Positions 7,226 through 37,015 of a stretch of 64,000 nucleotides of DNA are shown here, piece by piece. The notes below the pieces were generated by a model. It ran no database searches. It had not been told where the DNA came from and was given only the letters and a program-made list of their open reading frames with translations. Made by a program: the position numbers and the translations under genes. The DNA comes from Caldifarciminota bacterium (GTDB lineage Bacteria; Hydrothermota; Hydrothermia; Hydrothermales; JAJRUZ01): NCBI GenBank assembly GCA_024277525.1, contig JAJRUZ010000042.1, forward strand, positions 62,001 through 126,000, read 5' to 3'. Position 1 is the first letter of the stretch. The number at the start of each line of letters is the position of its first letter.

Positions 7226-10200
7226 ATGAAACAAAGTGTCGCAGGACTTTTGCCTGAAGTTTTAAAGGCGGTGAGGATAAAACTTGCCTCTCCGGAGGCA
7301 ATAAGGTCATGGTCATATGGTGAAGTAAAGTCAGCCGAGACAATAAATTACAGAACCCAAAGACCCGAAAGGGGTGGTTTATTCTGCGAAGTGATCTTTG
7401 GACCTGTTAAGGATTACGAATGTGCATGCGGGGCTTTTAAAGGAAAAAGATTCGGGGGAACGGTTTGTGATAAATGTGGTGTTGAAGTAACTTCTTCATC
7501 CGTTATAAGGGAAAGAATGGGACATATTGAACTTGCGGTACCTGTTGCACATATATGGTTTTATAAAATACCCCCATCAACAATTGCTTTATTGCTTGAT
7601 ATACCTTCTACGGATTTGGAGAGTATCTTATATTATGATAAATATATTGTAATAGACCCGGGTGATACGCCCCTTGAGAAAAAACAAATTTTATCAGACA
7701 GGGAATACGAGGAATATATGAGAGAATATAGAGGGGGATTTATGGCTGAAATGGGTGCTCCTGCGATTAAAAGACTCTTAAAAGAGATTAATCTTGAAGC
7801 ATTATCCGCTGAACTGAGGGTTAAATTAAGGTCAGAAAAAGTAGAGCATATTAAAGGAAAAATCCTGAAAAGATTACAGATAGTTGATGCCTTTTTAAAT
7901 TCCGGAAATAAACCTGAATGGATGATTCTTGAAGTTTTGCCTGTAATTCCTCCTGATCTAAGACCCCTTTTTCCTCTTGAAGGAGGAAGATATGCTACAA
8001 GTGATTTGAATGACCTTTACCGAAGGGTTATAAACAGAAATAACAGGATTAAGAATATAACAAAGATGGGAGCGCCTGAAATTATATTGAGGAATGAAAA
8101 AAGATTGCTTCAGGAAGCAGTTGATGCGCTTCTTGATAATTCCAGAAGATCGAGACCTGTGATGGGCAAACAAGGTAAACCTTATAAATCATTATCAGAT
8201 ATGCTCAGGGGTAAAAAAGGAAGATTCAGAAGGAACCTCCTCGGGAAAAGGGTTGACTATTCAGGTAGATCAGTAATAGTGGTGGGTCCCGAACTTAGAT
8301 TGCATGAAGTGGGTGTTCCGAAAGAGATGGCACTTGAACTTTTCAGACCCTTTGTGGAAAGAAGACTTGAGAAAAAAGGTATTGCAGAATCTTTAAGAAG
8401 TGCAAGAAGACTTGTAAGGGAAAGACCGGTGGAAGTGTGGGAAATCCTTGAGAATATTGTGAAAGACCATCCCGTTCTTTTAAATAGGGCGCCGACATTA
8501 CACAGGGTATCAATAGAAGCATTTTATCCCAAATTGATAGAAGGTAAAGCAATCCAGCTCCATCCGCTTGTTTGTCCCCCTTTCAATGCGGATTTTGATG
8601 GAGACCAGATGGCTGTTCATGTGCCTATTTCTCCCGAATCCCGTCTTGAATCACACTTTTTGATGCTTTCAAGACATAACATCTTATCTCCTGCACACGG
8701 TGCACCTCTTATGACTCCAACTCAGGACATGGTAATCGGAATTCATTACATTACAAAAATTAAAAAGGGAGCGAGAGGAGAAGGAAGGAAATTTGCCACC
8801 TTTAACGAAGCAATACTTGCTTATGAATTGGGTAAAATTGATTTACATGCAGAAATAGAGGTTGAAGAAATCGAAAGCAAAAATAAGAAAACAACTGTCG
8901 GTAGGATATTGTTTAACAGGATTGTTCCTGAAGGAATTGAGTATATAAATGAGGAAATGAACAAGAAGAAACTTGCAAATCTTGTAAAAAGGGTATATAT
9001 AGAGAAGGGTTCCCTTATATGTCAAGAATTCCTTGATAATTTGAAAGATATGGGATTTAAATGGGCTACAAGAGCGGGTGTTACTTTCGGTATAGATGAG
9101 ATGATTGTCCCTCCCGATAAAAAGACGATCTTGGAAAAAGCAGAGAGAAAGTTGCATAAAATCGAGAACGATTACATAAAAGGTAAAATTTCCGCGGGTG
9201 AGAGGTACAATGCGATTCTCGATTTATGGACAGAGGTAACCGATTTACTCACCGATAAGATGGTGGACTTAATGCAAAAAGATAGAAAAGGGTTTAATTC
9301 AATTTATATGATGATGAATTCGGGTGCAAGGGGTTCTCTTGATCAGGTGAAACAACTTGCGGCAATGAGGGGTCTTATGGCAAGACCAAAGAGAATAATA
9401 GGTCTTACGGGTGAATTTATTGAAACTCCTATTAAATCAAATCTGAAAGAAGGTATGTCTGTTCTGGAGTATTTCATTTCTACGCATGGAGCAAGGAAAG
9501 GTCTTGCGGATACTGCTTTGAAAACAGCCGATGCCGGATATTTAACAAGAAGATTAGTTGATGTAGCTCAGGCGGTTGTAATCAGTGAAGAAGATTGCGG
9601 AACAATTCAAGGGAGAGAAGTCTCTGCTCTTAAGGAAGGTGAAACTGTTATTGAAAGTTTATCCGAAAGAATTGAAGGACATTTCGCAGCAGAGAATGTC
9701 AGGAATCCGTTTACAAAGGAAATCATTGTAAAGGCAGGAGAACTCATAACAGAGGAAAAAGCAAAGGAAATAGAGAATCTTGGAATCGAAAAGGTAAGGG
9801 TAAGACATGTTTTAACTTGTGAGTCGAAAACAGGTATATGTGTAAAATGTTACGGTAAACACTTGGGAACAGGAAGAATCGTTGAAATAGGAGAACCTGT
9901 CGGAGTCCTGGCCGCTCAAAGTATCGGTGAACCCGGAACACAGCTTACATTGAGGACATTCCATGTAGGAGGAGCGGCTTCAAGGGTTATGGAAAAATCC
10001 AGGCATGAGGCACCTTTTAGAGGAAAAGTTGAATTTGTTAACCTTAAAGTGGCAACAAACAGTGAAGGTAAAAGTGTTGCAATTTCAAAAAAAGGTATGA
10101 TCCGAATATCTCATATTCAGAATCCGGAGGTAAAAAGGTCATTTGCTATACCTCAGGGTGCCGAAGTTCTTGTTAAAAACGGAGAAGAAGTTGATAAAGG

Positions 10201-26690: not shown

Positions 26691-28220
26691 ATGTATTTGA
26701 AAGACATAATTTATATTTTTGAAAGAATAAAAAATGAGAACTCCCTGAATAAAAAAATCTTGATACTCTCAGATTTTTTCGGCAAATTAAATCCCGAAGA
26801 AACAAAAATTTCTTTTGCCCTTTTATCAGGAATTCCTGTTTACGGAAAACTTAATGTCGGATATTCAATTTTAAAGGATATGATAAATACGGTAAAAAGT
26901 CAGATAAAGAAAAACATAACATTAAAAGAAATTGATATATTTTTGAGCAAATTAAAAGAAATAAAAGGAGAGGGAGCTGTCAGCTTTAGATACAGGATGC
27001 TTAAGGATTTTTTCAAAAAACTTGATGAAAAGAAAAGAATTTTTATGTTTTATTATCTTCTCGGGGAAATAAGACAGGGGGCAAAAGAGAAAATTATTTT
27101 TAAAGCACTTTTGAAAGCAAAAAACATTGATTTAAAAGAGGGAGAAAAATTATTGAAAAGGGGAAACATACTTGAACTTGTTTATGACATTGCATTAAAG
27201 GGTAAGAATATTTTAAAGGAAGAAAAGATTAAGATTTTTGAACCCGTTTCTCCGATGCTTGCCGAAATTGAGGAAAACCCCCTTAAACTTTTCAGAACAG
27301 GAAAACCTCTTTTACTTGAATTTAAAATGGATGGGGCAAGACTCCAGATTCATAAGGAAAAGGATGAGGTAAAGATATTTACAAGAAATCTCAGGGATAT
27401 AACGGATAAACTGCCTCATTTAAAAGATTTCTTCAAAAACTTCAAGGATGATTTTATCCTGGATTCAGAAGCAGTTATATTAACGGAAAAAGGAACCCTC
27501 TTACCCTTTCAGGACTTTATGAAAGAATTCGGAAAAAAGATAATAAATATCTCACAAATAAAGCCCTTTATATTTGATATAATTTACAAAAACGGTGAAT
27601 TCCTTTTTGAGTATCCTTTAAGGGAAAGAATTAAAATTCTTGAGGATACAATATCCGATGAAATAAGAATGCCCTATTTGATAACCGATAAAAGAGAAGA
27701 AGCTCAGAAATTCTATGAAGTTTCAATAGAAAAGGGAAATGAGGGTCTTTTAATTAAAGAACTTTCAAGTCCCTATGTTTACGGTAAAAGAGGTAAGCAC
27801 TGGTTTAAATGGAAAAAATTTTATACCCTTGATTTAACAATAACAGGTGCTGAATGGGGGCACGGAAGAAGAAAGGGATTTTTATCAAATCTTCATCTTG
27901 CATGCATTGATGAAAAAAGGGAAAATTTTCTGGAGCTCGGTAAGACCTTTAAAGGTTTAAAAGATGAAGACCTCATTTTTCTGACTCAAAATCTTCCGAA
28001 ATTTAAAAAACAGGATTTCGGCTGGATGATAAAAGTTAAACCCTTTTATGTTGTTGAAATTGCCTTTGATGAAGTTATAGAAAGTAAAAAATATAATTCA
28101 GGATTTTCATTAAGATTTGCAAGGGTAAAAAGGTTCAGATTTGACAAAAATGTTAATGAAATTGCGGATATAAATGAGATAAGGAAAATATTTGAGATGG
28201 AGAGGAAAAGGAAAATTTAA
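26691..28220 (+). CDS. ATP-dependent DNA ligase (archaeal/eukaryal type)
   Basis: Adenylation motif LEFKMDGARLQIH, FTRNLRDITDKLP, EGLLIKELSSPYVYGKRGKHWFKWKK. Confidence 0.93.
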   Translation: MYLKDIIYIFERIKNENSLNKKILILSDFFGKLNPEETKISFALLSGIPVYGKLNVGYSILKDMINTVKSQIKKNITLKEIDIFLSKLKEIKGEGAVSFRYRMLKDFFKKLDEKKRIFMFYYLLGEIRQGAKEKIIFKALLKAKNIDLKEGEKLLKRGNILELVYDIALKGKNILKEEKIKIFEPVSPMLAEIEENPLKLFRTGKPLLLEFKMDGARLQIHKEKDEVKIFTRNLRDITDKLPHLKDFFKNFKDDFILDSEAVILTEKGTLLPFQDFMKEFGKKIINISQIKPFIFDIIYKNGEFLFEYPLRERIKILEDTISDEIRMPYLITDKREEAQKFYEVSIEKGNEGLLIKELSSPYVYGKRGKHWFKWKKFYTLDLTITGAEWGHGRRKGFLSNLHLACIDEKRENFLELGKTFKGLKDEDLIFLTQNLPKFKKQDFGWMIKVKPFYVVEIAFDEVIESKKYNSGFSLRFARVKRFRFDKNVNEIADINEIRKIFEMERKRKI

Positions 28221-28277
28221 TAAATGATTTTAATATAACCAAATTTTAAAAAAATGGAATTAATAATTTAAAAAGCT

Positions 28278-28289
28278 TATAATATAATT
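28278..28289 (+). promoter_or_regulatory. -10 box of a predicted leaderless promoter for the ATPase gene (TATAAT-N6-ATG)
   Basis: TATAAT 28278-28283, 6 nt, ATG 28290. Confidence 0.5.
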
Positions 28290-29474
28290 ATGATCCAAAA
28301 ATTATTTATTAAGAATTTCCGTTCAATTGAGAAACAGGAAATTAATTTATCTCCATTAGTAGTATTATATGGACCTACTGCTTCTGGTAAATCCACCTTG
28401 CTTTATTCTCTTCTTGTATTCAGAAATTTCATTATAAATCCCAATCAGCAATTGGATGGGTTCTTTAATCTGGGTTTCCAAAACTTAGGGAATTTTGAGG
28501 ATGTTATTTTTAACAAAGATAAAAATTCAGAAATAGAGTTTATAATTTCTGTAGATAAGGCTGAATACGGTATTTCATTTTCCCAGATAGGAGGGAGAAT
28601 TTTTATAAAGCTACAAACAGACAATATGGGTATTAACCTGGAAGGCACAATCCCGATACCATACGGATTAAATCGAAATTTCCCCGTTAGGAAAAAGATT
28701 GATCAGAACGATTTTACAATAAATTGGAACGGTATAACTGCAAACGTTATTCCATCACAACCTACCGTGGAGTCCAATAAAATAGCAAAGAATATTGCGG
28801 AGCAATTAAATCAGATTCCAGAAATTTTAAGAAGAGTTGATATTGTCCCCCATAGAAGAGGTTTTTTTCAACCCTTTTACACACCTTCTCAGGTATCTTC
28901 TTTGCCTGTATCAGAAGCCGAAGTGGCTACGCTTATTATTACAGATGCAAATCTTGCACCCAGAATTTCGGTAGATTTAGAGGAAATAACAGGAAGGGAA
29001 TTCAGAATTTATACTCCACCAGGAACAGCAACCGTTTATTTTCAAACAATAGATAAGAAATCCAGAATGCCTTCTTATCTTGTAAATGATGGGTTCGGGG
29101 TAAATCAGCTTGTTTATATATTAGCTAAAATATATAGGCAAGAAGTTAAAACGATTTTAATTGAAGAACCAGAGGTTCATCTACATCCTACCGTGATACG
29201 TAGTTTTATTAGGCGGATATGTTCAATCATAGAAGAAGAAAAAAAACAGATAATATTTACTACACACTCAGAGGTTCTGGTTGGTTCTTTACTTGTAGCA
29301 ATTAAAGAAGAATTAATATCCGTGAATAAAGTTAAATTATTTTTAACTCAAAAATACAATAAAGCAACAATTTTTAAAGAACAAAAAGTAAACGATAAAG
29401 GTCAAATTGAAGGTGGCTTGAGTTCATTCATAGAAGGAGAATTGGAGGACTTAAGGACAATGCTTGAAATTTAG
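28290..29474 (+). CDS. AAA15/AAA21-type ABC-fold ATPase (OLD/RecF-like)
   Basis: IKNFRSIEKQEINLSPLVVLYGPTASGKSTLL (Walker A), TILIEEPEVHLHPTVIRSFI (Walker B), IIFTTHSEVLVGSLL (H-switch). Confidence 0.88.
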   Translation: MIQKLFIKNFRSIEKQEINLSPLVVLYGPTASGKSTLLYSLLVFRNFIINPNQQLDGFFNLGFQNLGNFEDVIFNKDKNSEIEFIISVDKAEYGISFSQIGGRIFIKLQTDNMGINLEGTIPIPYGLNRNFPVRKKIDQNDFTINWNGITANVIPSQPTVESNKIAKNIAEQLNQIPEILRRVDIVPHRRGFFQPFYTPSQVSSLPVSEAEVATLIITDANLAPRISVDLEEITGREFRIYTPPGTATVYFQTIDKKSRMPSYLVNDGFGVNQLVYILAKIYRQEVKTILIEEPEVHLHPTVIRSFIRRICSIIEEEKKQIIFTTHSEVLVGSLLVAIKEELISVNKVKLFLTQKYNKATIFKEQKVNDKGQIEGGLSSFIEGELEDLRTMLEI

Positions 29475-29476
29475 AA

Positions 29477-29932
29477 GTGATACTCATAATTGATGAATGG
29501 CTTTGGCATGATATAACAGGTGAAAATGGAGAAGAAAAAAGAAAAGAAAGTTTCAAGTTTCTTGAATGTATATTAAAAATATGCGATGAAATTGCTATAA
29601 TGAAAAAATCAAAATTTTCAAAAAAACTTTGGAAAGTTGCTAAGAATAAAGACCTTAAGACGATTAAAATAGTCAAATTTTTTATATCAAAAATTTTACA
29701 CAATTCCCGGAAATGCAGAATATATGAATATGAAAATAAACACTATTTGGGAGGAATTAAAGAGGACGATATCTACTTATATAATTTATATATTTTAATT
29801 GAAGAAAAAGAAAAATGTATTATTACAACCGATAATCCATTACTAAATGTTCTTAAAAACCACAAAATAAAAGTGTGTTCAAGGGAAAAATTTATAAAAA
29901 GTTATCTAAAAAATTGTGAAGAGACAAAATAA
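29477..29932 (+). CDS. Putative PIN-like nuclease domain protein, coupled to the ATPase (GTG start)
   Basis: 2-nt gap after ATPase stop; acidic residues in PIN-like order: IIDEWL...IKEDDIYLYNLYIL...CIITTDNPLLNVL...VCSREKFI. Confidence 0.5.
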   Translation: MILIIDEWLWHDITGENGEEKRKESFKFLECILKICDEIAIMKKSKFSKKLWKVAKNKDLKTIKIVKFFISKILHNSRKCRIYEYENKHYLGGIKEDDIYLYNLYILIEEKEKCIITTDNPLLNVLKNHKIKVCSREKFIKSYLKNCEETK

Positions 29933-29935
29933 ACA

Positions 29936-31150: not shown

Positions 31151-31222
31151 TGGCGGCGGGCGGATTCGAACCGCCGACTCAGGGCTTATGAAACCCCCGC
31201 TCTACCCCTGAGCTACGCCGCC
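31151..31222 (-). tRNA. tRNA with CAT anticodon (Met elongator or Ile2)
   Basis: GGCGGCG/CGCCGCC acceptor, anticodon loop TTCATAA, T-arm GGCGGTTCGAATCCGCC. Confidence 0.92.
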
Positions 31223-31330: not shown

Positions 31331-31729
31331 TCATTTAATAAGTTTTTCTATGAATCTTTTGGCAAGCTGGAAAGTATCTTTAACTGTTTCAATTCCACTT
31401 AAATTTCCCCTATAATATCCAGCAATGTGAATCTGGTCATACAATTTACTTGCCCATTTTTTCAGTTTTCCATCTTTGTGTGAAAGATATTTCCCGATGT
31501 AAAGTTCATAAGTTTCCCATTTCTGGGGTAATTCATCTTTGGATAAACCTCTTTTCAATAATGCATAATCAATTGCCTTTAAAATAGCAAGCCAGAGTGT
31601 TCCGAATGCTTCCTGAACATATTTGATATTATCATAAAATCCTATTTCATAATCGGGTTCCGCTTTTTTCAAAATTTCCTTTGCGTTTTCATAATATTTT
31701 AATGCTTCAATTTCGGGTTTCTTTTCCAT
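31331..31729 (-). CDS. HEPN-like/DUF5618-like protein
   Basis: 132 aa helical; YYENAKEILKKA...IKYVQEAFGTLWLAILKAIDYALLKRGL...LYDQIHIAGYYRGNLSGIETVKDTFQLAKRFIEKL. Confidence 0.6.
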   Translation of the reverse strand: MEKKPEIEALKYYENAKEILKKAEPDYEIGFYDNIKYVQEAFGTLWLAILKAIDYALLKRGLSKDELPQKWETYELYIGKYLSHKDGKLKKWASKLYDQIHIAGYYRGNLSGIETVKDTFQLAKRFIEKLIK

Positions 31730-31838: not shown

Positions 31839-32381
31839 TTAAAGCCATTCAATTAACAAGTTTTTTTTCAACTTCACCGCTGCACCTGATAAAAGTTCCT
31901 TTATCCATACAATAACAAGATTATTTTTCTCATCAATCTTTTTTATTTTTGCCCTTACTCCTTTCAAAGGTCCTCTTTTAAAAGTTATTTCTTCTTCCTC
32001 TTCCAAAGAATATACAGGAAAAACATCCTTTTTATGCTTATCCGTGATAATTTTTAAAGACTTTATCTCTTCTTCGGTTATAATCGCTGGAATATTGTTG
32101 AACTTAACATAACCGACAACTCCTTCAGCATCCATTGCAATATAAAAAGGTTTTGTTCTCGGAGTAACTTTTACAAAAACATAAGACCTGAATAAAGGAA
32201 TTTCCCTTTCCTTTCCGGGTGAAACATATATAATTCTGGTCGGTAAAAAAGTTTCTATATCAAATTTTTTTAAATAGTTGTGAACCTTTTTTTCATGATT
32301 ACCCTTTGTGAATAATGCAAGCCAGACGGGATGTTTTATTTGATAAAATTTATCCTTTAATTCTTCCATTTTGTAATTCAT
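31839..32381 (-). CDS. NusG paralog (RfaH/UpxY/LoaP-like specialised NusG)
   Basis: WLALFTKGNHEKKVHNYLKKFDIETFLPTRIIY...REIPLFRSYVFVKV; C-term KOW-like ITFKRGPLKGVRAKIKKI; distinct from nusG at 710. Confidence 0.85.
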   Translation of the reverse strand: MNYKMEELKDKFYQIKHPVWLALFTKGNHEKKVHNYLKKFDIETFLPTRIIYVSPGKEREIPLFRSYVFVKVTPRTKPFYIAMDAEGVVGYVKFNNIPAIITEEEIKSLKIITDKHKKDVFPVYSLEEEEEITFKRGPLKGVRAKIKKIDEKNNLVIVWIKELLSGAAVKLKKNLLIEWL

Positions 32382-32429: not shown

Positions 32430-33383
32430 ATGATTTTGAATTTATTTATTTTTTTTATTCTATCCTTTCCCTATTTTTCAAGAAAGGAAAATATAAGATG
32501 TTATTCCTGTCATCTTACTCCTGAAATTTTGACACAAGAGGGGAAAGATTATATGCATAATTATGAAAATCCCGATAAAAGAAAATTACTTGTTCTTTCT
32601 CCGGATCTTGATATGGAAAGAAGTTTTCCGATATCTGTACAACTTTATTTTGACAATAATAAAAATTTCTTTTCCGATATATTTATAGCGGGTCAGGCAA
32701 GTGCTAACAGAAAACTTTATTTGAAAATAAGGGGAACAGAAAAAATTTATATAAAGGAATTTTTTTTCACTTACAGAAGATTCGGAGCGAATTTTTTTGC
32801 GGGTATGACAAATTTTCTTTTTCACAGCCCTTTGAAATTTGTTTTTAAAGATTCAATATTCTCTTTTTTTTATGTGCCGGAAAATTTATTTCCGCATAAG
32901 GAATTTTCATGGGGAATTTTTAAAAATTTTCATTTTAAAGATTTTATAACAAGGGTATCTTTCAACTATCCGTTTCCGAAAAAAGATGAAAAATTTCCTG
33001 AATATTCATTTTATTCTTTAAGTTTTTATAGTAAAGTTTTTTCTACGGACTTATTTTTTCTTTATTTTAATGAAAATAATTATACTTACGGTCTTATTTC
33101 CGAAATTATTTTTAAGCCTTTGTTTATGAGGGGAATTTTCATTGTGAAAAGCCTCGAAAATTATTTTAATGTGGAAACAGGAATTATAAAAATGTTCAAA
33201 AATCCTTTCAGTTTGTTTTTATTTTTTGATTCAGAATACAAAAATCAAAAATTTTATCCCGGATTTTCAATATACCTTTTTGTTCAGGAAAATATAAGAT
33301 TCGGAGCAGAATACAAAATTTTAAATAATGAGTTAATAAGTGATTTAAATCTTTTAAAATTATTTATAGATGTGCATTTGTAA
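32430..33383 (+). CDS. Putative outer-membrane beta-barrel with N-terminal c-type heme motif
   Basis: Signal peptide MILNLFIFFILSFPYFS then RCYSCHLTPEILTQEGKDYM (CxxCH); alternating aromatic beta-strand pattern. Confidence 0.65.
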   Translation: MILNLFIFFILSFPYFSRKENIRCYSCHLTPEILTQEGKDYMHNYENPDKRKLLVLSPDLDMERSFPISVQLYFDNNKNFFSDIFIAGQASANRKLYLKIRGTEKIYIKEFFFTYRRFGANFFAGMTNFLFHSPLKFVFKDSIFSFFYVPENLFPHKEFSWGIFKNFHFKDFITRVSFNYPFPKKDEKFPEYSFYSLSFYSKVFSTDLFFLYFNENNYTYGLISEIIFKPLFMRGIFIVKSLENYFNVETGIIKMFKNPFSLFLFFDSEYKNQKFYPGFSIYLFVQENIRFGAEYKILNNELISDLNLLKLFIDVHL

Positions 33384-33424
33384 TGACTCTTAATAATTTG
33401 AATTATAATGGGAAAGAGGGAAAT

Positions 33425-36400
33425 ATGAGAGAATGTCCAAAATGCGGTTTCAATAACCCCGAGAATGCGAAGTTTTGCACTCAATGTGCAACAATGCTTT
33501 CCCAAATTTTTGAGGAAAGACGCCTGCTCACAATATTATTTGCAGATTTATCAGGTTTTACAAGATTGGCACACCAACTGGACCCGGAAGACACATCGGA
33601 TGTTGTCAATATTTGTTTCAAACAATTAAATCCTATAATTACAAAATACGGAGGAATAATTCATAAATATGAAGGGGATTTGGTAATTGCTCTTTTCGGC
33701 ATCCCTGTTGCCTATGAAGATGCTGGTGAAAGAGCGGTGAAGGCTTCTTTGGAAATGATGGAAAATTTACCGGAATTAAATAGGAAACTCTCCGATAAAA
33801 TTGACTTCAAAACCGGACTCGGACTTCATATAGGAATAACAAGCGGGATAGTCGCAGTTGGAGAGATCGGCTCAAGTGAGAAAAAAGAATATACCGTGAT
33901 GGGAGATGTAGTAAATATTGCTTCAAGACTTAAAGATACAGCAAAAGATAGAGAGATTCTTGTTTCAGAATCGGTTTTCAAGTCATCAAAGCATCTCTTT
34001 GATTATGAGGAAATTTCATCAGTGAAGTTAAAAGGCATTGATAAACCCGTAAAAGTATTTAAAGTTTTAAAGATAAAAGAAAAACCCGGGGCAAAACGCG
34101 GTATAAAAGGACTCCATTCACCGCTTGTCGGTAGAGGTAAGGAATTTAGATTACTTAAAAGAAAAATATCGGAATTGCAAAAGGGAAAAGGGGGTGTGAT
34201 TCTTATTTTGGGCTCCGCAGGAATCGGAAAATCACGACTGTTGGAAGAAGTGAAAAAACATTTTACTCTCGGCGACATAAACCGAAATACTCCCATTTTT
34301 CTTGAATCTCACTGTTTAGCACACGGAGATGTAATACATTATTACCCTTTTTTGAAAATTATGGAGTCCGTATTCCAAATAACAGAAAGGGACACTGTTA
34401 AAGTGCTTAAAAAGAAATTATTGAAATATATACAGGAGATATTTCCCCAGGGATACGAAGATATTCTACCCTATATCGGATATTTATTCTCGGTGCGCTT
34501 TTCCGATAGAATAGACAGGAAAATAAGATATCTCGGTGCAAAAGCATTAAAATTGCGGGTATTTTTAAGTATCAAAAAACTTCTTTTTAGGTTGGCAAGA
34601 GAAAAACCTCTGGTAGTTGTTATTGATGACCTTCATTGGATTGACACTGCATCGTCAGAGCTTCTGCAATTTATTCTCTGCGCTCCTGAGTCTCTTCCTT
34701 TACTTTTCATAGGGTTATCCCGTATCGAAAGAAGAAATAACTTCTGGAAGATAAGGGAGCAGATAAGAGGAAATTTTAAAGGAAATTGGACAGAAGTCAA
34801 ACTTTTTCCCCTCGGTTATAAAGAGAGTAATCAATTAATAAGCAATTTACTTAAAATTATAAAAATACCCGATGAGTTTAAGAAGAAGATTCTCGCAAAA
34901 GCGGAGGGTAATCCGTTTTATCTTGAAGAAATACTAAAAGACCTCATAGACAGGGGTATCATTATTTTTAAGCACGGAACATGGATACTTAAAACAAAAG
35001 TCAATATTCATATTCCTGATACAATTCAATCCGTGATATTGTCGCGTATTGATAAGTTAAAAAAGGACTCAAGGAATATTTTACAGATTGCATCAATAAT
35101 CGGCAGAAGTTTTAACATAAGAATTTTAGAACACATTTCAAAGTTAGATTCCTTTGCACTTTCCTTAAATTTACTATCACTTGAAGAATCAGACTTTATA
35201 AGAAGGCTGAAACATGGGGTGGAATTTATATTCAAACACCCTTTAATACAGGAAGTGACATACAATACGGTATTAAAGAAAAAAAGAAAAAGACTTCATA
35301 ATGAAATAGGGAAATGTATAGAGGAGATATTTTCCTATCGGATTGAAGACTTTGTAGATTTACTTTCCATTCAATACTTTTTAGCAGAAGATTACCGAAA
35401 GGCATATGATTATTCGGTTCGTGCTGCGGAGAAAGCAAAAAATGCTTATTTAAATAAACAAGCAATAGAACTGTATACACGGGCATTTAATTGTTTAACA
35501 CGTATGAAACCGTCTCTTATGCCTTATGAGGAGCGAATAAAGAAAAAGGTTTTTTTATTAAAGGAAAAGTCGGATGTTTTGAATTTTATCGGTGATAATA
35601 AGAATGCATTGAAATATATTAAAAGGGCAATTAATTTAGCGGGAAAAATCGGAAATAAAAACTTACTTGCGGATTGTGTTTTACAGCTGAGTAAAATTTA
35701 TGATTCCATAAGTAAGTATCAACTTGCTTTGGAAAAGGCAAAATATGCATTTGAAATTTACAGACAGATAAATGACAGAAAAAAAATCGCGGACTGTTTT
35801 CATAATATCGGTGTTACTTATTATCATCTCAGAGATTACCGAAAAGCGCTTGAGTATTATAACGATTCTTTAAGAATAAAAAAAGAGATAAAAGAGAAAG
35901 AAACACAGGCGTCGACCCTTAATAATATGGGGGTTATTTACCGCCAGGTCGGTGAATATGAAAAGGCTCTTAAATATCTTAAGGATGCTTTAAAAATAGA
36001 TAAAGAAACGGAAAATAGAAGGGGAGAGTCAGCAAGTCTCAATAATATCGGGAATGTGTATCGTTCGCTCGGTGACTTTAAAAATGCATTTAAATATTAT
36101 CTTGATTCCCTGAATATAAAAAAAGAGATTGGAGACCGGGAGGGAGAGGCAACAAGCCTTAATAACATCGGAATTATATGTTATTATCGGGGTGATTATG
36201 AAAAAGCAATCAGGTATTACAATGAAGCATTGAAAATAAAGAAAGAAATAGGGGACAAGAAGGGAGAGGCAATGAGTCTTAACAATATCGGTATTGTGTA
36301 CTATCGGCTCGGAGAATATGAAAAAGCGTTTAAATATTATGTTAAATCTTTAAAAATTAGGGAGGAAATACATGACCTTTACGGTCAGGCATCAAGTCTT

Positions 36401-37015
36401 CATAACATCGGTAATGTATTTTTGAATATCGGAGAATACAGAAAAGCATTGAGATACCATAATAATTCTCTAAAAATAAGAGAAAAGATAGGGGACCGGA
36501 ATGCTCAACCTTACAGTTTTCACATACTCGGTAAGATATACACGAAGTTAGGAAAATTTAAGAAAGCAAGAGAAAACCTCATTAATGCAAAAAGAATATC
36601 GCAAGAGACTAAAGAAAAATATATTTTATGCAGCACAGAGATTTCCCTCGCTGATTTAGAATTGGAAGAAAACAATCTTAAAAAAGCATTAATTCATATC
36701 AAAGAAGCTTTTAATCTTGTTCGGGAAGTGGATTCAAAAGAGCTCAAAGGTTGTGTATTTCTGGTGTATGCGAAGGTTAAAACCCAGGAAAGGAAGTATC
36801 AAGAGGCGGAAAGTTATTTCAAAAAGGCAATTAAAATATTTAAAGAATTGAAGCAACCTTTTGAATCAGGAGAAGCATGGTATTATTACGCAAGGCTTAA
36901 GAAATTAGAAGGTGATATTTCAGCCGAGCAGAAATTTCTGGAAAAGTCAAGACAGATCTTTAAAAAACTTTCCGCGCAGGGTTGGCTTAAAAAAATAAAC
37001 GATTTATATTTATGA
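33425..37015 (+). CDS. Zinc-ribbon + class III adenylate/guanylate cyclase + AAA ATPase + TPR protein (likely start 33425, not 33383)
   Basis: CPKCGFNNPENAKFCTQC; LLTILFADLSGFTRLAHQLDPED...VMGDVVNIASRL; GSAGIGKSRLL; about 7 tandem 40-aa TPRs; TATAAT at 33404 and gaggg SD precede 33425. Confidence 0.93.
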   Translation: MRECPKCGFNNPENAKFCTQCATMLSQIFEERRLLTILFADLSGFTRLAHQLDPEDTSDVVNICFKQLNPIITKYGGIIHKYEGDLVIALFGIPVAYEDAGERAVKASLEMMENLPELNRKLSDKIDFKTGLGLHIGITSGIVAVGEIGSSEKKEYTVMGDVVNIASRLKDTAKDREILVSESVFKSSKHLFDYEEISSVKLKGIDKPVKVFKVLKIKEKPGAKRGIKGLHSPLVGRGKEFRLLKRKISELQKGKGGVILILGSAGIGKSRLLEEVKKHFTLGDINRNTPIFLESHCLAHGDVIHYYPFLKIMESVFQITERDTVKVLKKKLLKYIQEIFPQGYEDILPYIGYLFSVRFSDRIDRKIRYLGAKALKLRVFLSIKKLLFRLAREKPLVVVIDDLHWIDTASSELLQFILCAPESLPLLFIGLSRIERRNNFWKIREQIRGNFKGNWTEVKLFPLGYKESNQLISNLLKIIKIPDEFKKKILAKAEGNPFYLEEILKDLIDRGIIIFKHGTWILKTKVNIHIPDTIQSVILSRIDKLKKDSRNILQIASIIGRSFNIRILEHISKLDSFALSLNLLSLEESDFIRRLKHGVEFIFKHPLIQEVTYNTVLKKKRKRLHNEIGKCIEEIFSYRIEDFVDLLSIQYFLAEDYRKAYDYSVRAAEKAKNAYLNKQAIELYTRAFNCLTRMKPSLMPYEERIKKKVFLLKEKSDVLNFIGDNKNALKYIKRAINLAGKIGNKNLLADCVLQLSKIYDSISKYQLALEKAKYAFEIYRQINDRKKIADCFHNIGVTYYHLRDYRKALEYYNDSLRIKKEIKEKETQASTLNNMGVIYRQVGEYEKALKYLKDALKIDKETENRRGESASLNNIGNVYRSLGDFKNAFKYYLDSLNIKKEIGDREGEATSLNNIGIICYYRGDYEKAIRYYNEALKIKKEIGDKKGEAMSLNNIGIVYYRLGEYEKAFKYYVKSLKIREEIHDLYGQASSLHNIGNVFLNIGEYRKALRYHNNSLKIREKIGDRNAQPYSFHILGKIYTKLGKFKKARENLINAKRISQETKEKYILCSTEISLADLELEENNLKKALIHIKEAFNLVREVDSKELKGCVFLVYAKVKTQERKYQEAESYFKKAIKIFKELKQPFESGEAWYYYARLKKLEGDISAEQKFLEKSRQIFKKLSAQGWLKKINDLYL

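Follow-up and report, generated by a model that had tools for sequence, protein, structure and literature searches.

A horizontally moving gene pair of an OLD/AriA-type ABC ATPase and a PIN-like protein as a probable anti-phage system

Introduction

ABC ATPases of the OLD/AriA group pair with effectors of TOPRIM, HEPN-type and restriction folds. In PARIS, the ATPase AriA sequesters the tRNase AriB, which is released or activated when a phage protein is sensed (PMC12409363). PrrC and RloC couple an ABC ATPase to an RNase and are linked to type I restriction-modification (R-M) systems (PMC2610378, PMC3506569); PrrC is kept silent by the type I R-M system encoded with it until an anti-restriction peptide sets it free (PMC3506569, PMC2610378). 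Recent work shows that defence systems built on other plans also need PIN nucleases (PMC13092281).

The window, which is the whole stretch of DNA analysed here, comprises 64 kb of a 2.34-Mb genome in 102 contigs. It contains two co-directed genes, separated by 2 nt:

28290..29474, + strand: OLD/AriA-type ABC ATPase of 394 aa, predicted sensor/regulator (ORF with ATG start; Pfam, PADLOC and homologues)
29477..29932, + strand: PIN-like small protein of 151 aa, predicted RNase effector (ORF with GTG start; AlphaFold and Foldseek)

A preliminary description of this DNA had read the two open reading frames at 28290-29932, both of which are present, as a candidate defence system of an ATPase and a PIN-like protein. 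The analysis supports this reading: the pair probably protects bacteria against phages by means of an unusual effector. The intact catalytic motifs, the pairing of the two genes at every locus, the PIN-like model with its conserved acids, lateral transfer and the proximity of defence genes make it fairly likely that the pair is a mobile two-gene cassette for abortive-type defence, in which the ABC ATPase gates a PIN-family RNase.

The pair belongs to neither PARIS, Gabija/OLD, PrrC/RloC nor VapBC. With PARIS it shares the arrangement of two adjacent genes for an AAA_15/OLD-type ABC ATPase, which is matched by the AriA profile, and a small predicted nuclease. AriB, however, is a TOPRIM tRNase (PMC12409363), whereas the partner in the window is PIN-like by model and has no AriB match. 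In Gabija and OLD a TOPRIM domain is fused C-terminally, in Gabija together with the helicase GajB, and the window pair has neither. The likeness to PrrC and RloC is most apparent at a related locus where the pair is flanked by hsdS and hsdR (genome G216, see below), but PrrC and RloC are single polypeptides with an anticodon nuclease of the HEPN type, in contrast to two genes, a PIN-like partner and the lack of an R-M neighbour in the window. HEC-01 (AAA_21 and DUF4276) and AbiL follow the same two-gene logic; the AbiLi profile matches the window ATPase and a HEC-01 pair adjoins one of its relatives (in genome G529), yet the partners DUF4276 and AbiLii, families that are RloB-like, do not match the small protein. 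The best PADLOC profile of the ATPase, NsnB, covers its full length and also matches all seven homologues, but the small protein matches none of the Nsn partner profiles; a description of Nsn was not found in the literature searched. VapC and related PIN RNases resemble the small protein by modelled fold (VapC2, 3zvk, E 7.5e-5) and differ from it in that the latter matches no Pfam PIN family and carries variant conserved residues (E7, S45, K50, K79). Moreover, VapBC contains a small DNA-binding antitoxin, whereas the partner here is a 394-aa ATPase and a VapB-type antitoxin is absent. The DefensePredictor systems DS-3 and DS-5 likewise need a PIN nuclease for phage defence, but DS-3 consists of one protein and DS-5 of a PIN protein with a DUF5830/AcrIF4-like protein, and an ABC ATPase is described in neither (PMC13092281).

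A two-gene system of an ABC ATPase and a PIN protein was not found in the literature searched, outside of which lies the ABC-ATPase survey of Krishnan et al. 2020; since that survey might list such a pair, priority cannot be excluded. By a conserved pairing with a PIN-like protein, a major toxin-RNase fold would join the effectors of the OLD/AriA group, which would support the idea of one sensor chassis that swaps its effectors. Such loci are missed today because the small gene is not recognised by Pfam, NCBIfam, PHROGs or PADLOC.

Results and Discussion

Relatives of the gene pair

Relatives were sought by whole-genome searches of overlapping samples, one genome-contig scan and scans of viral contigs. 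Seven further loci were found, distributed over several phyla and one IMG/VR contig, five with intact and two with degraded pairs. Besides the window, intact pairs are present in genomes G032, G216, G383 and G529 and on the IMG/VR contig (L036). The copy on a Thermodesulfobacteriaceae contig (L005) combines an intact ATPase with a partner that ends about ten codons past the conserved IDEWLWHD motif. In G036, stops and frameshifts interrupt the ATPase gene as well as the small gene; this decayed copy (L014:6500-7900) carries extra DNA between the two broken genes, which is consistent with a later insertion there.

At all eight loci, the window included, the ATPase is accompanied by the partner or its remnant, so that the conserved association proposed as a test of the cassette was indeed observed; an ATPase of this family lacking both was not encountered among the loci found. 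The intact genes lie 2-16 nt apart, with a possible overlap in L036. Furthermore, the divergence of the ATPase correlates with that of the partner (r = 0.85, 15 non-independent pairs).

The ATPase

The conserved motifs of the ATPase are located as follows:

28371..28394, + strand: Walker A, GPTASGKS (sequence; G28 and G33-K34-S35 invariant in 7 homologues)
29157..29189, + strand: Walker B with catalytic glutamate and LHP loop, LIEEPEVHLHP (I291, E293-P294-E295 and L298-H299-P300 invariant)
29256..29270, + strand: H-switch, FTTHS (sequence; T325-H326-S327-E328 invariant)

As seen in the alignment, the Walker A, Walker B and H-switch residues are unchanged across the 7 homologues; identity to six of them ranges from 37 to 65%. 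Pfam assigns the protein to AAA_15 (1.7e-22) and AAA_21 (3.2e-22). Among the PADLOC profiles NsnB ranks first (6.8e-37, full length), followed by HEC-03B and AriA (4.5e-28, residues 1-330), and AbiLi also matches (6.3e-20). The chain stops about 65 residues past the H-switch, Pfam detects no TOPRIM domain in it, and the operon contains neither a TOPRIM protein nor a helicase. Judged by its P-loop, Walker B glutamate, H-switch and profile matches, the ATPase is a member of the OLD/AAA_15 ABC family, in agreement with the three motifs and the OLD/AAA15 type that had been read from the letters before.

The leaderless promoter that had been ascribed to the cassette does not hold: a TATAAT is present at 28283-28288, but the region contains 10 promoter-like matches, no more than the shuffled expectation of 10.1 (s.d. 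3.6).

Fold and putative active site of the small protein

Three sites of the small protein carry candidate catalytic residues:

29492..29500, + strand: D6-E7-W8, where predicted strand 1 ends, with a candidate active-site acid (alignment; E7 invariant, N in place of D6 in two homologues)
29765..29770, + strand: D97-D98 at the start of predicted helix 96-107, D98 a candidate metal ligand (D98 invariant; model; HHalign)
29825..29833, + strand: T117-T118-D119 at the end of predicted strand 114-117, D119 a candidate metal ligand (D119 invariant; model; HHalign)

From its sequence alone the protein is not recognisable as a PIN domain. Pfam, NCBIfam, PHROGs and phmmer/hmmsearch against the PDB gave nothing significant, and comparison with the PADLOC profiles revealed no meaningful match or plausible partner; AriB, DUF4435, DUF4276, AbiLii and the Nsn partners are all without a match. 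Matches of the small proteins to the Cmr5 and GajA profiles were discounted, being weak and differing from member to member. An HHalign comparison of the small-protein alignment with four VapC-type PIN proteins from these genomes yielded nothing. With 25 DUF5615 (PIN-like) proteins of the same phylum, a weak local match was obtained (pairwise P 0.0022; reversed controls 0.16-0.21), in which D98 and T117-D119 are paired with the acidic motifs of DUF5615.

The single-sequence AlphaFold model of the small protein was of poor quality (pLDDT 53), and a fold search with it gave nothing meaningful. Addition of one homologue (31% identical) resulted in a model of moderate confidence built from two sequences (pLDDT 68.6, pTM 0.61), which displays the alternating order of strands and helices expected for a PIN domain. 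The best Foldseek match in the PDB is VapC2 of Rickettsia felis (3zvk; E 7.5e-5, probability 1.00, TM 0.54), and the other leading matches are Thermus 3ix7, the PIN protein SSO1118 of Sulfolobus, the PIN domain of human EST1A and further VapC toxins, with TM-scores of the PIN matches between 0.45 and 0.54. A search of a viral fold library gave sub-threshold matches only, the first of them a giant-virus PIN protein. The model, which bears out the PIN fold and the absence of a TOPRIM or HEPN partner suggested in the preliminary description, makes a PIN-like fold of the small protein very likely.

The fold matches also bear on the target of the putative nuclease. As a structure-specific DNase of the FEN/PIN-like kind, the small protein might be loaded onto phage DNA by the ATPase, in the manner of Gabija/OLD. 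OLD-type ATPases do work with DNases (PMC10568477), and the flap nuclease D15 of phage T5 is one weak Foldseek match, but FEN-type structures rank far below the RNase PIN domains of VapC, SSO1118 and EST1A, and 151 aa are too short for the FEN-specific extensions, so that DNA-acting defence is regarded as quite improbable.

Across the six homologues, invariant residues of the small protein are E7-W8-L9, F28, S45, K50, K79, D98, Y100, I115, T117, D119, L122 and F139. The acidic spots IIDEW, KEDD and ITTDN, which had been picked out as PIN-like, hold E7, D98 and D119 of this set. D6 is kept in four of the six and replaced by N in the other two, at L034:8124-8603 and L039:7661-8125 (VNEWL, INEWL). 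With E7 invariant next to it, this replacement suggests an active site that may be displaced from the canonical PIN arrangement. The glutamate that usually follows strand 2 as the second PIN acid is not evident; the corresponding segment has the invariant S45 and K50; together with the loss of D6 in two of six members, this indicates an unusual or possibly weakened active site. The same two peculiarities, the silence of sequence profiles with respect to PIN and the weak, local nature of the DUF5615 match would fit a catalytically dead PIN-like adaptor, or a protein that is not PIN at all, with the ATPase doing something else. Against this, E7, D98 and D119 are invariant although the members are only 25-46% identical, and the Foldseek PIN matches reach probability 1.00. 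A dead or non-PIN protein is thus considered unlikely, and the small protein is likely to be catalytic, as a putative PIN-family nuclease.

Insertion and mobility

The cassette is located exactly between the genes for a DNA ligase and an aminotransferase:

28221..29935, no strand: inserted segment in the interval between DNA ligase and aminotransferase (flanks adjacent in G029 and G030)

In these two sister genomes the ligase (70% identical) and the aminotransferase (76-77%) are convergent and directly abut; in G030 the two reading frames share about 20 nt. This marks the cassette of the window as an insertion. Its distribution is patchy: within the phylum of the window 3 of 147 genomes carry the ATPase, within the Thermodesulfobacteriaceae class 1 of 41 and within a wide sample 2 of 395, and it is absent from the three other genomes of the window's family. 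Moreover, the window ATPase is 65% identical to that of Thermodesulfobacteriaceae, which belong to another phylum, compared with 59% to a copy in its own phylum and class. The cassette is a rare, horizontally moving two-gene unit.

Uniformly vertical presence, named earlier as evidence against the defence reading, was hence not found. Ordinary housekeeping genes passed on by descent would suit the housekeeping flanks in the window, but the pair was not found in any other searched member of the family and order, and the empty site in the sister genomes and the decayed copy in G036 also speak against them. Vertical inheritance of this kind, ruled out by the empty site and the patchy distribution, is hardly credible.

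The tRNA-Met gene at 31151-31222, beyond the aminotransferase, had been regarded as a plausible integration spot. It was rejected as such, as it lies upstream of the aminotransferase with or without the cassette and keeps the same place in the cassette-free sister genomes. Terminal repeats that would mark a transposon are not evident around the cassette, where only short pairs of low identity occur. Close relatives were not found in phage or plasmid records, including 72,556 plasmids; distant ATPases appeared at loose thresholds only, and one weak match was to a Salmonella plasmid (E 0.1).

Defence genes in the neighbourhood

Known defence genes are located within one or two genes of the pair at five of the seven other loci, a raw count from few loci that agrees with the anticipated association with defence genes. 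In G032, SIR2 and a class II pAgo lie one gene off the pair. In L005, a type IIG restriction-methyltransferase of 1163 aa ends about 7 nt before the coding sequence of the ATPase. Type I R-M genes adjoin the pair at three loci. The order in G216, all on one strand, is hsdM, DUF1016 nuclease, hsdS, 23S-IVP-like gene, ATPase, PIN-like gene and hsdR. In L036, hsdR, hsdS, hsdM and a DUF5655 gene are followed by the ATPase, the PIN-like gene and a large serine recombinase, with tRNA-Lys at the recombinase end. In G529, hsdS precedes the pair, and an AAA_21 and DUF4276 pair (HEC-01 in PADLOC) and a zeta-toxin-like gene follow it. Type I R-M linkage is absent in the window, G032, G383 and G036, and no defence gene was recognised near the pair in the window, in G383, where it is surrounded by surface-polysaccharide genes, or in G036, where it lies among housekeeping genes.

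Three of these regions have further features. The gene in the gap between hsdS and the ATPase of the type I R-M operon in G216 (L033:8903-9574) is a weak match to the four-helix, 23S rRNA intervening-sequence type. The contig L036 (1-10416) is catalogued as viral; with a type I R-M operon, the pair and a gene for a large serine recombinase that ends next to tRNA-Lys (9888-9960), it resembles a defence-carrying integrative element more than a phage. At L039:1818-9341, the pair and the AAA_21 and DUF4276 genes stand in tandem and are followed by zeta-toxin-like and VapC-like genes.

The neighbourhoods are also relevant for a plain toxin-antitoxin or addiction module, in which a PIN-like toxin and an ATPase serving only as antitoxin would persist by post-segregational killing, with no sensing of phage. 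VapC toxins are PIN proteins, the genes form a two-gene operon, their spread is patchy and copies decay; the loss of the small gene in L005, where the ATPase was kept, could represent the disarming of a toxin. However, antitoxins are usually small DNA-binding proteins, in contrast to a 394-aa ABC ATPase that has retained all catalytic motifs and that remains intact in L005 even where the toxin is gone. The direct vicinity of R-M and pAgo systems and the lack of a close plasmid match likewise argue against addiction, which therefore seems an unlikely explanation.

Proposed mode of action

For the proposed defence cassette, the mode of action can be outlined by analogy with PARIS and PrrC: the ATPase would keep the predicted PIN-like RNase in check until the cell is infected or another system residing in it fails. 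In the resting cell, the ATPase as sensor or regulator may bind the small protein and keep it inactive. A phage cue, or the breakdown of a restriction system in the same cell, could change the state of the ATPase, and the altered ATPase would free or activate the small protein, a predicted metal-dependent PIN-family nuclease. The nuclease would then cleave RNA of the host, with tRNA or rRNA as the likeliest targets, and the resulting stop of translation might bring phage growth to a halt.

A guard role is hinted at most strongly by G216, where hsdS and hsdR enclose the pair. Its recurrence next to type I R-M, type IIG R-M and pAgo genes makes such a role, acting on blocked restriction, directly testable. 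The trigger may be more general than failure of R-M, since several copies, including that of the window, have no R-M neighbour.

Further genes in the window

The gene at 26691-28220 encodes an ATP-dependent DNA ligase with three ligase domains in a bacterial genome; orthologues are close in two genomes of the same family, diverged in the third and not found in four other genomes searched. Beside tRNA-Met, a DUF5618 gene is located at 31331-31729 (Pfam, 4.5e-23), which may be a separate insertion because it is missing from the equivalent place in the sister genome G030 (L030). A second NusG-family gene at 31839-32381 (Pfam NusG, 4.8e-15) possibly represents a specialised NusG paralogue; the first, at 710-1279, is part of a cluster of ribosomal protein and RNA polymerase genes. 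Finally, a 1210-aa protein encoded at 33383-37015 combines a guanylate/adenylate cyclase domain with AAA_16 and many TPR repeats.
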